Below, piece by piece: positions 58,787 through 64,000 of a stretch of DNA of 64,000 nt (position 1 is its first letter; every line of letters begins with the position of its first letter). A model generated the notes under the pieces. It was not told the origin of the DNA. It was given only the letters and a program-made list of their open reading frames with translations, and did no database searches. Position numbers and translations under genes: made by a program. This DNA comes from Roseateles sp. DAIF2 (GTDB lineage Bacteria; Pseudomonadota; Gammaproteobacteria; Burkholderiales; Burkholderiaceae_C), in NCBI RefSeq assembly GCF_015624425.1, contig NZ_CP049919.1, forward strand, positions 868,001 through 932,000. Direction: 5' to 3'.

Positions 58787-59002
58787 TCAGGTCGTGTGAT
58801 CTTTGGGCTTTGCGCAGGCGGGTTTGCAGACCAGCTCGGTGCGGCCGAGGATGCGGGTCGATTGCAGGCTGCTCGGCGCGCGGTGCTTGCCGCACTTGAA
58901 GCAGGAGCGGGTATGCCCGCTGCCCAGGAAGGGCGAGCCGCCCAGCTTGGACTCGTAGCGCAGCCCATCGTCGCTGACGCTCGTGTAGGTGTCTTTGCTC
59001 AT
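58787..59002 (-). CDS. Small Cys-rich, probably zinc-binding protein
   Basis: The 71-residue protein MSKDTYTSVSDDGLRYESKL... has a Cys-x-x-Cys pair (SCFKCGKHR) and a second pair (LVCKPACAKPK), spaced like a small zinc ribbon. The ATG at 59002 is chosen because upstream in-frame sequence to 59071 is short and lacks a domain. It is in the same direction as, and 62 bp before, the TPR-GGDEF gene. No named family is recognised. Confidence 0.6.
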   Translation of the reverse strand: MSKDTYTSVSDDGLRYESKLGGSPFLGSGHTRSCFKCGKHRAPSSLQSTRILGRTELVCKPACAKPKDHTT

Positions 59003-59174
59003 TGTTCTGGTCCGCTCCGGAGTTTTCCCTCTCGCGGCCCATATTAGGCCGGGCGGACATGACGGCACCATCTCGCTTGCACTGATGTACGGGCTTTTGA
59101 CGCCACGAAATCGTCATATCGATAGGCAATCGGCGCGAGCAGCGCACAATCGCGGCTTCGTTCAAGCGATTCCG
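59003..59174. other. Intergenic region upstream of the interrupted tdk
   Basis: The region is 172 bp without a gene, lying between the leftward Cys-rich gene and the rightward tdk remnant. It still resembles host DNA but becomes less GC-rich after about 59070. It should hold divergent promoters; none stands out clearly. Confidence 0.5.
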
Positions 59175-59222
59175 ATGGCCAAACTGTTTTTCCGTTACGC
59201 GGCGATTGTTGGGGGATCGTGA
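59175..59222 (+). pseudogene. tdk: 5' remnant of the host thymidine kinase gene, broken by the island
   Basis: The frame from ATG 59175 reads MAKLFFRYAA, exactly how type II thymidine kinases start, and then instead of the P-loop (MNAGKST in intact genes) continues IVGGS and stops. Seven of the ten first residues equal those of the complete tdk at 59408 (MARLWFRFAA). The break comes at GCGGCGAT (59199-59206), which the complete gene also contains at the same codons. The natural reading is that an element inserted here; the displaced 3' part should lie at its far end, outside the window. Confidence 0.72.
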
Positions 59223-59407
59223 GTTCAAAGTTTCCAGATTGTTGTCATCGTCGCCTGCCGCAGGGCAAGCGGCTTTGTTGGATGATGCGTTATGTGACAT
59301 CTTGTGCGCCCGGGTTGGGCTGGCCCCGCCGCGGTGTTACAAATGTCTTGCTGTTGGTTTGGTGCTTCAGCTTCACCCATCTGTAACACCTCTCTGGGAG
59401 ACCCTTT
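59207..59407. mobile_element. Left terminal region of the island inserted in tdk
   Basis: These 201 bp lie between the tdk break and the second tdk start and code for nothing obvious. Base composition differs from the host (TTGTTG, TTTCCAGATTG, TTACAAATG). An inverted repeat GGTGTTACA (59333-59341) and TGTAACACC (59382-59390) could be a recombinase-binding or regulatory site. The promoter for the carried tdk must also be here. Confidence 0.6.
59333..59390. repeat. 9-bp inverted repeat in the island's left end
   Basis: The perfect arms GGTGTTACA and TGTAACACC are separated by 40 bp, just ahead of the carried tdk. Candidate recombinase arm site or operator; not tested. Confidence 0.5.
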
Positions 59408-59962
59408 TTGGCTCGTTTGTGGTTCCGCTTTGCGGCGATGAATGCGGGGAAGACCAGTTCGCTCCTGCAGGTTGCGCACAACTACGAGGAGAACGGCGAG
59501 CAGGTCCTGTTGCTCACGTCAGCGTTGGACGACAGGGCAGGCCACGGCGTCATCGCATCCAGAATTGGGCTGCAGCGGGAGGCGATGACCTACGACACGA
59601 GAACAGACTTCCTAGCGCTTTTGCAGGATGTGACCGTGGCCTGTGTGCTCATTGATGAAGCGCAGTTCCTGACCGTCGAGCAGGTGACCCAGCTCCATCG
59701 GTGGGTTCATATCCGGAATGTTCCGGTGATGTGCTTCGGACTTCGGTCGGACTTTCAGGGGAGGGCCTTCCCGGGGGCGGCTGCGTTGCTCACCCTCGCC
59801 GACAACTTGGAAGAGATCCGAACTGCATGCCGTTGCGGCAAGAAGGCCACGATGAACATTCGGGTTGACGAGAGCGGGAACCGCATGCGTGAAGGCGATC
59901 AAGTGCTCATTGGGGGCAATGGCCGCTATCGCCAAGTTTGCTCGCGCTGTTTCTACAGCTGA
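59408..59962 (+). CDS. tdk: Thymidine kinase (type II), island-borne replacement copy
   Basis: The 184-residue enzyme starts at TTG with GGGAGA about 8 bp upstream. It has the P-loop AAMNAGKTS, the catalytic Glu in VLIDEAQFLTV, the lasso/active-site run VIGGNGRYRQ-like in QVLIGGNGRYRQ, and zinc ligands in CRCGKKA and VCSRC. It is complete, ending just after the last zinc Cys pair. It phosphorylates thymidine for salvage. Codon use is less GC-biased than in the flanking chromosome, and it lies inside the island, directly behind the broken host copy. Confidence 0.9.
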   Translation: MARLWFRFAAMNAGKTSSLLQVAHNYEENGEQVLLLTSALDDRAGHGVIASRIGLQREAMTYDTRTDFLALLQDVTVACVLIDEAQFLTVEQVTQLHRWVHIRNVPVMCFGLRSDFQGRAFPGAAALLTLADNLEEIRTACRCGKKATMNIRVDESGNRMREGDQVLIGGNGRYRQVCSRCFYS

Positions 59963-60009: not shown

Positions 60010-61389
60010 ATGTTTGTCTCCATCAAGGTCAAAGTTCTAGTAGACAGCGCGGGGCCCGGCATCGACATGCCGGCGCTGTTGACGCCAGTCGGGCTGTTGA
60101 GGCCACTTCTGGACTACTTTGTTGCCGAGCAACATAAAAGCCTGTCATGGATGCGCAAAGTGACGCATTCGGTTCAATTGTTCTTGGAGTACATGCATGC
60201 GAACCCGAGTGAAGTAGACACGCGTGTTCTCTTTGCCAACTTTGCAAGACGCCTCTACACGGGCACGTTTGATCTACAGACACGTGCCGATCCGAGTGGG
60301 CTTTGCTGGGCACCCAGAAGCATCTCAGACGCAAGCCGCATCATTAGCGATCTGAACCTCTTCCTGGACTGGCAGGGTGAGCGGCAACCTGCCGCATTGA
60401 GCGTGAACCCAAGAGTTTCGGCAAGCCGCTATGAGAAGCAGTGGCTTGACGCTGCCACCCGTTACCGACGGGAGAATGCCCTTCTTGGGCACCTTTGGAG
60501 CCGTCGCGATGAGGCGTCCGTTTCAAGCTCCAGGCAGGTCCGCGCGAAGAGAGGCCCTCATTCCAGGGACGGAGAGCCCCCCGCCTTTCCTGAAGGCGAA
60601 TTTATGAACCTACTTACCGATGGTTTTCGCGTGGGTAAGCGCATTGACTATCGTGGGCAATTGATCACACTGTTGTTGCATGGCGCGGGATTTCGAGAAT
60701 CAGAGCCATTTCATCTGTATATCGAAGATGTGGCACACGATCCGATAAACCCGGGGGCGGCACTGGTTCGAATTCATCATCCGTCCGCAGGACATGCGCC
60801 TTCCAGTTGGAGGGGGAACTTGAAAAAAAACAAGCGTGGGACGCGTGCTGAATATTTGATGGACGAATTCGGATTAAAACCTAGAAATCAAAATTTTGAC
60901 AATAGCCATGCCGGTTGGAAGGGTGGGCTATGTGATGCCCCATACTACATGGAGGCACGCTGGTTTGAGGCGCAGTACGGAACTATCTTCATGGATGCTT
61001 GGCTGCGGTATCTCCATCAAATTTCCAGAATCGATCGGAATCATCCATTCGCGTTTGTAAATTTAGGCCGCGGCCGGTTAGGGGATCCCTACAAGGTATC
61101 GCAATTCAACGATGCCCATGCGGCTGCATGTCGGCGTATCGGTCTGAATGTCAGAAAAGATCTCGGGACTACTCCGCATGGTCATCGACATGCTTATGGC
61201 CGACGTCTTGTGAAGGCCGGAATGAATCAGAAGTACATACGGATTTTCATGCATCATGCCAGCATCGAAAGTCAGGCTGTATACACGCAACCGACCTCGG
61301 CTGAGGTTGCTGAAGCGTTGCAGAGCAGCATGGATCGGTTGGCAGCTAGTTCAGCTGAGAGGCTGAGAAAACGCCAAGCCTCAGAGTGA
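60010..61389 (+). CDS. gmtY: Tyrosine recombinase, GmtY-like (gamma-mobile-trio)
   Basis: The 459-residue protein has an N-terminal SAM-like region (SLSWMRKVTHSVQLFLEYMH) and a C-terminal tyrosine-recombinase domain. The catalytic residues are R229 in GAGFRESEPFHLYIED, H390 and R393 in TPHGHRHAYGRR, H415/H416 in IFMHHASIES and the nucleophile Y425 in QAVYTQPT. The architecture and the opening VSIKVKVLVDSAG resemble GmtY as I remember it. AT-rich codons and AAAAAAAA near 60822 mark it as foreign. The start at 60010 has a weak ribosome site. It overlaps the next gene by 1 bp. Confidence 0.75.
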   Translation: MFVSIKVKVLVDSAGPGIDMPALLTPVGLLRPLLDYFVAEQHKSLSWMRKVTHSVQLFLEYMHANPSEVDTRVLFANFARRLYTGTFDLQTRADPSGLCWAPRSISDASRIISDLNLFLDWQGERQPAALSVNPRVSASRYEKQWLDAATRYRRENALLGHLWSRRDEASVSSSRQVRAKRGPHSRDGEPPAFPEGEFMNLLTDGFRVGKRIDYRGQLITLLLHGAGFRESEPFHLYIEDVAHDPINPGAALVRIHHPSAGHAPSSWRGNLKKNKRGTRAEYLMDEFGLKPRNQNFDNSHAGWKGGLCDAPYYMEARWFEAQYGTIFMDAWLRYLHQISRIDRNHPFAFVNLGRGRLGDPYKVSQFNDAHAAACRRIGLNVRKDLGTTPHGHRHAYGRRLVKAGMNQKYIRIFMHHASIESQAVYTQPTSAEVAEALQSSMDRLAASSAERLRKRQASE

Positions 61390-64000
61390 TGAATGACTTC
61401 TCCGTCCTTGATAGAAAACTTGACCAGCTATTGCAGTCAAGAAAGCTAAGCGACTATGGATCGGAGGCTGCACGTGAAATGCATAAAATATGTCGAATTC
61501 GATATATTGAAGGTGGGCGACGATTTAATCTGGACGAGGTTTCCAAAGATTATTTGGCGGCGACTGGTAGGGATCTGAAAAATGAGCAGAAATATGCCCG
61601 TAGCGCAGCCTGTGTTGTCGCGAGATCTTGGCAGGAGGCCGCCGATCTAGAGAGTTGCGATCTTGATATTTCAGCTCCGCCAGGGCATCCCGACTACGTG
61701 TTGCAAGAGCAAATTTCAGATCCTTTGAGAAAAGCGACTAGGATTTTGAGCTTGCTGGCAATTCACTTGGTTTGTAAGTTTCGATTCGAACGCGGAGAAC
61801 TGGACTTCAGTGCCAAGAAAGTTGCGCAGGACCGTGTGCTCTCTGAAGGGCCGCTAAAAGGGCGACTGACCTATAACATGGTGAGGGCTTCGCACGAGTT
61901 GTTGGATGCGTGGCAGGGTCATTCAGACAAGCTTCGCATAGCACCATCATGCCTAGCGCAATCCGATGAGCCTGATGTGCTCATTGAGGACTTCCTTAAA
62001 GGACGTGGACTAGACGTTCGAATTGAAGTAGGCCTTCGAGGCATAAATGATGTTTGCCGGGCAAAATTCGAACAGGGCGATTTTGACTTCAGTCCGTTGG
62101 GTCTTGTGAAGGATCTGGTCAAAGCTGGAGTTTTTGGGAGTGCAGGAAATGCGAGGCAGCGACTCCTTAAAGAAGCGCGATACAGAGCTTTAGTCGATTC
62201 ATGGCAGCGCCGCGCTGACGCACAATGGATAAGTACGCTGGCGACCCTTCCCTCCGAGCATCCTGATGCCGTTTACCGGAGTTTGGCATTAAGCTCTGAG
62301 CGGCCTTTAGAGCTGCCGTACATTGGCGTCCATCGTCTCTGTTATCTCCTATACAAGGCAGGTCACATCGATTTCTCTCGTGCAACGATCGCCAAACTCT
62401 ATATGGAGCGTGCTGGGTATAAGGTTGACATATACAGGAATGGTCCAAAGTCGCAGGGTTTTAAACAATTGGTTGATGCGTGGGGGAGGTTTGCTCGTCC
62501 CTGGCTTCAAAGTGTTGGTGCACCTGCTTCATCTGCACCTCGTGCACGTCGACAGACCGGTCACGATAGAAATCTTGAGTGGGTGCGGATCGATCATCCT
62601 GAGCTTGAAGAGTGGAGGCTCCTTGGGGTCGAATGGCTCAGATTAACGAAATCCGGGCTGAGTCAGCGTATTGTGGCATTAGGTACATTTTTCAGAAATT
62701 ACCTAATGCGAAGCGATGTCCCCAAGACACCTGAAAAATTACTTCGGCGAGGGGCGCAAACCCCTGAATTTCTCCAGATAGTGGGAGTGACGCGAAATCA
62801 TGTTGCGCAAAACAATCGTCTGCGGGAGTTTGTCGAATGGGTTCTTTTAAGGGACTTTAGCGATGAGGCGGATGATGGCCAGTTGATGGTTTCCCCTGCT
62901 TATCGGAATCCATTTCCACCGGAGATTGTTCCGCGTGGGCTGGGTATGTATTCCGAAAGCGTGCGATCACCTCTTCCCTATGGCTACATCGCTGAACTTC
63001 GGAAAATATTGGCCGAAGGCGAGAGTTTTGGCGATTGGAAATATGCGCAGAATGCGCAAGGCGCATCTGTTGGAAGTATTGGCGCGCCGGGCAGGGACTG
63101 GTTTGTTGTTGATCCGTCAATTATTGACAATAACGACCCGGACTGTGTCTGGCGGATGCGCACGTTTAAGGGCGGGAGCGCAAGTCCCACTGTCGTGTAT
63201 CAGATGTGGAGTCCTGTTCGCTCGGTAGCCGTACTTACCAAGCTGCTCTTGCCTCTGCGAACGTCACAAGTACGTCTTCTGGACTCGGGGGAGTCCGACA
63301 CATGGAAGAAAGAGCGTGGCCATTGGGTGCTCAACGATCATCCATTGGCCGAGAAAGGCAAAGTCTGGCGACAAGGGGTGCTACGGCGCGTGGTTGATCT
63401 CGCGGAAGGGGTGGAGCCGGCAACTCAGCTGTATATCAACACGAATAAGACAGCTGATCAGGAGAAGTTCGGGCCGAGTAAGGGGTATGACATGCCTTGG
63501 TTCGTGGCTGGGGATCCAATTGACAATGTCTTCTATTGGCTGGAAAAGCTTCGAAACTGGCAGAGTAAATACAACCCGCTTGATCGGCGCACTTCGTGGG
63601 CTGAACTCGATGGTCGACACATTCAACCAAAAACACCTGAACAGCTTGCTTCCTATCCTGATGCATGCTTTCTGTTCCGGATGGCGGAAGCAACTGAAGG
63701 TGGACGAGCCCTGCCAGTGTCGGATGGGGTTGTTGACGGCGCTTGGGCCAATCTGCTCGGGGAGTTTCAGCGTCGTTTGTCTGAGCGAGGTGAAACCCAT
63801 CCGGGCGGTGCGCCAATTGTCCTAGTAGAGACTGATGGGAAGGGGCGTCGGGGCAGAACGGATTTCCCCCTGCATAGCTTGCGCGTTTCGCTCATCACGG
63901 CACTTGCCCTAGATGGGGAAGTGCCGTTTGCGATTTTGCAGAAGTTGGTAGGGCATAGCCGGCTCATCATGACGCTCTACTACACCAAGCCCGGGCATTC
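61389..64000 (+). CDS. gmtZ: Large tyrosine recombinase, GmtZ-like (gamma-mobile-trio), runs off the window
   Basis: The ATG at 61389 uses the last base of the gmtY stop (TGATG), and the frame stays open to the window end, 870 codons so far. Residues about 31-371 are four tandem units of about 95 residues, each shaped like C-x-x-KFExGxxDFS ... VKD ... G ... ARY..LVDSWQ, probably winged-helix DNA-binding modules. The end holds recombinase residues: LPLRTSQVRLLD, HSLR (H829, R832), GHSR (H856) and Tyr864/865 in MTLYYTK. It resembles GmtZ by order and size. GmtX would be expected next, beyond the window. Confidence 0.72.
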   Translation, partial: MNDFSVLDRKLDQLLQSRKLSDYGSEAAREMHKICRIRYIEGGRRFNLDEVSKDYLAATGRDLKNEQKYARSAACVVARSWQEAADLESCDLDISAPPGHPDYVLQEQISDPLRKATRILSLLAIHLVCKFRFERGELDFSAKKVAQDRVLSEGPLKGRLTYNMVRASHELLDAWQGHSDKLRIAPSCLAQSDEPDVLIEDFLKGRGLDVRIEVGLRGINDVCRAKFEQGDFDFSPLGLVKDLVKAGVFGSAGNARQRLLKEARYRALVDSWQRRADAQWISTLATLPSEHPDAVYRSLALSSERPLELPYIGVHRLCYLLYKAGHIDFSRATIAKLYMERAGYKVDIYRNGPKSQGFKQLVDAWGRFARPWLQSVGAPASSAPRARRQTGHDRNLEWVRIDHPELEEWRLLGVEWLRLTKSGLSQRIVALGTFFRNYLMRSDVPKTPEKLLRRGAQTPEFLQIVGVTRNHVAQNNRLREFVEWVLLRDFSDEADDGQLMVSPAYRNPFPPEIVPRGLGMYSESVRSPLPYGYIAELRKILAEGESFGDWKYAQNAQGASVGSIGAPGRDWFVVDPSIIDNNDPDCVWRMRTFKGGSASPTVVYQMWSPVRSVAVLTKLLLPLRTSQVRLLDSGESDTWKKERGHWVLNDHPLAEKGKVWRQGVLRRVVDLAEGVEPATQLYINTNKTADQEKFGPSKGYDMPWFVAGDPIDNVFYWLEKLRNWQSKYNPLDRRTSWAELDGRHIQPKTPEQLASYPDACFLFRMAEATEGGRALPVSDGVVDGAWANLLGEFQRRLSERGETHPGGAPIVLVETDGKGRRGRTDFPLHSLRVSLITALALDGEVPFAILQKLVGHSRLIMTLYYTKPGH

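Follow-up and report, generated by a model that had tools for sequence, protein, structure and literature searches.

A gamma-mobile-trio island splits the thymidine kinase gene of Roseateles sp. DAIF2 and brings in a second, complete thymidine kinase gene

In the 64,000-nucleotide stretch analysed here (the window; positions 868,001 to 932,000 of contig NZ_CP049919.1 of Roseateles sp. DAIF2, in our coordinates G000:C1:868001-932000 of a single 6.01 Mb contig), the native thymidine kinase gene, tdk, is split between codons 10 and 11 by a 40.0 kb gamma-mobile-trio (GMT) island (G000:C1:927207-967216), whose left end carries a complete and divergent thymidine kinase (TK). The same arrangement in two other genera points to a lineage of islands that make good their own damage, and we put the probability that this is a tdk-specific GMT lineage equipped with a full replacement tdk gene at roughly 0.8.

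A frame reading MAKLFFRYAA opens at position 59175 of the window, is interrupted after GCGGCGAT (59199-59206) and runs into a stop after 15 codons, leaving a 5' stub of native tdk (59175..59206, forward strand; ten codons and two bases, ending GCGGCGAT) on the attL side as the left junction. The original prediction, made from the window alone, had noticed this host-type start breaking off before the P-loop, and expected the rest of tdk to turn up where the island ends on the right. A Pfam TK search of the genome returned two copies, one in the window and one at 967218 matching from profile position 10 on, and the far-end DNA reads ...GACCGTTGATGAACGCCGGCAAATCC, which is native tdk from codon 11 onward, as anticipated. 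With the 3' part located at 967218, the island must span 927207-967216, ~40.0 kb. GC content is 70.5% at 50-58 kb of the window versus 53.5% from 59207 to the window end. All three genomes available for the window genome's genus encode a TK, two copies being present only in the window genome; in both congeners tdk is uninterrupted and has the same neighbours, confirming that the start at 59175 belongs to a thymidine kinase gene. Among these neighbours, the native gene immediately left of tdk (58787..59071, reverse strand; 94 aa, no Pfam or NCBIfam match) is collinear in both congeners and serves as a marker of the host flank. Joined together, the island flanks give alignments of 1417 and 1311 columns with the two intact congener loci, 77% identical and continuing across the junction into the shared neighbours. 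The left half of tdk keeps GCGGCGAT and the right half begins GATGAAC; no base was therefore lost, and GAT is common to both halves.

Behind a 201 bp spacer (59207..59407, forward strand) lies the complete island TK gene (59408..59962, forward strand; 184 aa, TTG start), with two recombinase genes following it, as the original prediction had read this region. Its product matches Pfam TK with 142 bits and NCBIfam NF003300 with 251 bits (cut-off 195), and is 57-58% identical to native TK. It shows the features of a type II thymidine kinase, namely a full-length match, the P-loop, DEAQF and four cysteines; these motifs are intact in all nine of the island-type TKs aligned. The recombinases are the tyrosine recombinase gmtY (60010..61389, forward strand, with an open frame extending to 59938; NF040693, 506.7 bits, cut-off 340) and the integrase gmtZ (61386..64000, forward strand, continuing past the window to L003:6573). 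At full length gmtZ matches NF047926 with 899.5 bits, over the cut-off of 600, and its portion within the window alone scores 551.5 bits, under that cut-off. Just outside the window lies gmtX (L003:6570-7199; NF040692, 207.3 bits, cut-off 40). The trio is adjacent on one strand in the order Y-Z-X with overlapping ends, and the island is a GMT element. The earlier suggestion that GCGGCGAT, shared by the two tdk copies, is a candidate crossover core is not supported: the sequence does occur in both copies of the window, but the island TKs of the two other cases described below read GCCGCAAT and TCTGCCAT at this place, and the junction lies ~200 bp away from the island TK, so that GCGGCGAT is no core inside it.

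We searched 76 GmtY loci (68 from a scan of genome contigs and eight from another set, the two sets overlapping) by tblastn with the island TK. Three were positive: the window, a Roseateles metagenome-assembled genome (MAG; L044, 85% identity) and Duganella lactea (L047, 73% identity). Both further left ends consist of a ten-codon stub ending GCGAT, a spacer (198 bp in L044 and 195 bp in L047), a full TK, gmtY, gmtZ and gmtX, and elsewhere in each genome, on a different contig, lies a further TK that is cut at codon 11; the two tdk halves have one base in common in the Roseateles case, and two bases in Duganella. Insertion at the codons near the P-loop by an element that brings a full TK, as proposed from the window, thus recurs in two further genomes, bringing the arrangement to three genera. 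The island TK was not found in the other 66 loci of the 68-locus set, four of which offer too little sequence to tell, and a motif scan of the 3.5 kb upstream of gmtY, where at least 1,200 bp were present in 64 of the 68 loci, confined tdk stubs to the same three loci. A TK search of 12 other GmtY genomes found none in ten and a single full-length copy in two. Within 72,556 plasmid records, 137 of which hold GmtY relatives, the 79 with a TK all showed <60% identity to the island TK. These locus, genome and plasmid surveys indicate that the TK is tied to the tdk site rather than being a general trait of GMT islands. A scan of viral contigs for GmtY relatives yielded 46 pattern matches, none of them confirmed.

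In a tree of 71 GmtYs (out of 76 rows, those of <400 residues or identical to others being excluded), the three TK-linked GmtYs form one clade with 99/99 support, and their end branches of 0.40-0.57 changes per column suggest that the association between this GmtY and the TK is not recent. A first TK tree held 106 rows (a motif filter removed 10 of 51 host loci; 59 of 120 listed homologues entered each TK tree). In it the island TKs fall in a clade of 62 (SH-aLRT 99) whose other 59 members are database proteins of unknown context, and the stranded tdk fragments group among native TKs of related genomes. Fragments and island TKs are thus set apart in the kind of phylogenetic comparison that the original prediction had called for. 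Between the window and Roseateles island TKs, the nonsynonymous rate (dN) is 0.12 and the synonymous rate (dS) was not computable (returned as -1, which we read as saturated), indicating that the island TK protein has been kept.

We propose that GMT recombinases would insert the element, in circular form, directly ahead of the P-loop sequence of tdk, separating codon 10 from codon 11, leaving the ten-codon stub under the host tdk promoter and stranding the remaining gene at the far end. With a complete TK that begins ~200 bp in from the left end and is oriented like the stub, the element would let the cell keep a tdk behind the old promoter, and precise excision would rejoin the native gene. 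We infer the circular intermediate, that the island TK is expressed (whether by the host promoter or by one of its own), and a rescue of thymidine salvage, which would also be the reason for the gene's retention. In Duganella, a promoter-like site stands just before the stub, and a TATAAT-like box occurs near there in most native tdk loci compared; a 15-pair terminator-like hairpin follows the island TK, which would there be a separate unit behind the host promoter. Since this hairpin lies between TK and gmtY, it speaks against the two forming one operon as a rule. The window spacer has one weak terminator-like site, at 59257, no more than chance gives. In the Roseateles and Duganella stranded fragments, five codons are all that separate the last stop from codon 11, so that translation could at best start within them, yielding a product that presumably lacks the first beta strand.

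The island left end (59207..59251) contains the motifs TTGGGGG and CAAAGTT, both recurring at the Roseateles left end. Seven 45-bp ends were compared, all read inward: three left ends, three right ends and the right end of a further genome, G655, discussed below. As a group, they were matched or exceeded in likeness by just 1 of 2000 random sets; with G655 left out, 13 of 2000 random sets score as high as the island ends. Pairwise likeness is found between the window and Roseateles left ends (p 0.009) and between the Duganella left and right ends (p 0.0025). At the right end, the bases between a G-rich motif and native tdk vary from case to case, and may have been carried over from earlier insertion sites.

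Several observations weigh against the reading of a tdk-specific lineage that replaces its target. The left and right island halves of the Roseateles and Duganella cases lie on different contigs, and a continuous single island is therefore not demonstrated in these two genomes. Likeness between left and right ends of one island appears only in Duganella, the window and Roseateles comparisons giving p 0.70. Promoter searches turned up no consensus site in either the window or L044, and the one in L047 is no more than shuffled sequences give. The stranded fragments have dN and dS like those of intact genes and are thus not visibly decaying, which fits either recent insertions or continued use. 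Four genomes (G994, G697, G777 and G901; L195, L196, L198 and L197, respectively) have as their only tdk a TK of island type, which shares 77-87% identity with that of the Duganella island and is uninterrupted behind the native upstream neighbour; GmtY was not found in these genomes. A Roseateles genome, G655 (L172, G655:C75), has its sole tdk cut at the same codon, with neither a GmtY nor a second TK in the assembly. Finally, in G898 (L201, G898:C2:811000-830999), the TK adjacent to gmtY is of host type and not divergent.

These poorly fitting genomes deserve a closer description. TK was found in 214 of 392 genomes of the Duganella genome's family, one of which, G995, has two TKs, and in all 20 genomes of a Roseateles genus search. 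Genes of ordinary appearance, named by eye, lie downstream of the island-type TK in G994 and G697, and on either side of it in G901; the G777 contig stops 287 bp beyond it. In a second TK tree, which lacked L183 (compared separately), three of the four island-free TKs fall well within the Duganella part of the island-type clade, and with the island-free TKs added the three GMT-borne TKs no longer form one group. The fourth island-free TK is 83% identical to the window TK and 98% identical to a Duganella-side database member, with EEAQF in place of DEAQF. The TKs of these genomes may have stayed behind when islands were lost, or may be what the island gene came from. The right end of G655 resembles those of the window (p 0.004) and the Roseateles MAG (p 0.005), with p 0.24 against Duganella. 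RES/Xre-like toxin-antitoxin genes, recognised by eye, adjoin the cut tdk in this genome. In G898, the host-type TK with a scaffold gap is followed by a gmtY remnant with two stops, and a 5'-truncated TK is 97-98% identical to the gmtY-adjacent one; the order of parts is as in the island cases. Misassembly is possible.

Other explanations of the window can be set against this evidence. The stub is merely ten codons long, and there might be no island at all, with a chance resemblance lying near an unrelated second tdk; the empty-site congeners and the tdk 3' part at the far end refute this here, leaving it a negligible probability. Ordinary nucleotide-metabolism cargo, found at tdk by coincidence, would be in line with the varied cargo of GMT islands, which here includes a cyclic-oligonucleotide-based antiphage signalling system (CBASS)-like set and others. 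However, tdk is the insertion site of all three TK-bearing GMT loci whose left end is intact, the TK always lies 195-201 bp from that end and is absent from the other scanned loci, and no plasmid TK reaches 60% identity; coincidence is largely refuted by the survey and we regard it as very improbable. An enzyme with another job, such as altered nucleoside specificity or nucleoside-analogue resistance, with loss of native tdk as part of the effect, has in its favour a 42-43% difference from the native TK, but its match to the NCBIfam thymidine kinase family lies over the cut-off and the active-site motifs bear no sign of change, making this explanation improbable.

Somewhat more weight, though still against the odds, goes to the island TK being a relic of an earlier host's tdk, captured through imprecise excision or through recombination at the target, and unselected as a replacement. 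Island-type TKs are ordinary chromosomal genes in the four island-free genomes, and the near-identity of the gmtY-adjacent and stranded TKs of G898 means either that exchange with host genes happens or that the assembly is wrong. Against a mere relic, the low dN at saturated dS between island TKs points to a kept function, as do a P-loop, DEAQF and cysteines that are intact in 9/9 island-type TKs. Capture followed by later selection is compatible with these data, so that both can be true. The tdk-specific lineage may further act as a vehicle that swaps tdk alleles among bacteria: integration would silence native tdk and place a foreign tdk behind its promoter, the foreign gene would stay after the island is lost, and the four island-free genomes would be footprints of such events. 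We offer this extension tentatively, as a conceivable outcome and not the expected one.

Looking beyond tdk, we compared the regions upstream of gmtY (up to 4 kb) with one another, in order to reveal replacement genes of further GMT lineages; this returned numerous weak matches and failed to single out even the known tdk stubs. A gene of ~100 aa without a Pfam match in the two copies tested (for example L056:9688-9990) was found by tblastn in 12 of the 76 GMT loci, mostly in the slot just upstream of gmtY, which is that of the TK in the tdk lineage. Two pairs of GMT loci (L089 and L090; L042 and L088) lie just downstream of glmS-like and ribosomal protein S20-like genes, respectively, both named by eye; these neighbours hint at further GMT site preferences.

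The remaining cargo of the window's island lies outside the window. Near the right end is the CBASS-like set (L004:17850-19990 into L005, reverse strand), comprising a four-transmembrane (4TM) effector, an E2 protein and a cyclase, the last scanned over its C-terminal two thirds. A protein bearing a CdiA-CT RNase A-type domain (L004:8724-9674) and the candidate defence protein PDC-S39, with DUF7380 and DUF4209 (L004:14352-16238), are encoded on the same strand, and the cargo also includes a transposase with Pfam rve and HTH_21, which we labelled IS3-like. Two further reverse-strand frames beyond the window were noted by eye: one of 3605 aa, Tc-like in the open-reading-frame listing (L003:7729-18546), and one of 507 aa, Rhs-like and without a Pfam match (L003:18452-19975).

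Mobile elements that insert into protein-coding genes are known to repair their target by a few bases or by a new N-terminus. Here, a whole divergent replacement gene has been kept with a recombinase lineage across at least three genera, which permits a direct test of whether the damage done by an element's choice of target shapes the genes that it carries. The arrangement also hints at how a metabolic gene may be exchanged in place, and gives GMT islands a defined attachment (att) site for excision and integration assays. The founding paper on GMT islands is reportedly that of Mahata et al. in Nat Microbiol in 2024. Our literature searches, whose reach did not extend to that paper, returned no described tdk-targeting island with a replacement copy. 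GMT islands, for which PMC12715929 cites the founding work and whose genes are named in NCBIfam, share with the tdk island gmtY, gmtZ and gmtX at the left end and a large defence and antibacterial cargo; the tdk island appears to differ in being tdk-specific and in carrying a full replacement of its target. In the available portion of Bardaji et al. 2017 (PMC5385486), GInts have three integrases and GinD, target an ABC transporter gene or ssb, and compensate for insertion by an outward promoter, with no replacement gene described there. They resemble the tdk island in having several recombinases at one end, cargo, a poorly conserved other end and insertion into the 5' part of a gene, and the 6-7 nt staggered cuts described for them in that portion (PMC5385486) could serve as a model for the variable right junctions of the tdk islands, Gmt and Gin systems being compared here by description. 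Also comparable, going by the relevant part of PMC8409611, are dusA-specific integrative elements and the integrative and conjugative element (ICE) SXT in prfC, which insert into the 5' region of a protein-coding gene and compensate for it. The far tdk fragment has no new in-frame TK-like N-terminus of the SXT/prfC or dusA type, and in the window genome it matches the TK profile from position 10 only; compared with those elements as so described, the tdk island supplies a complete, separate gene at the near junction.
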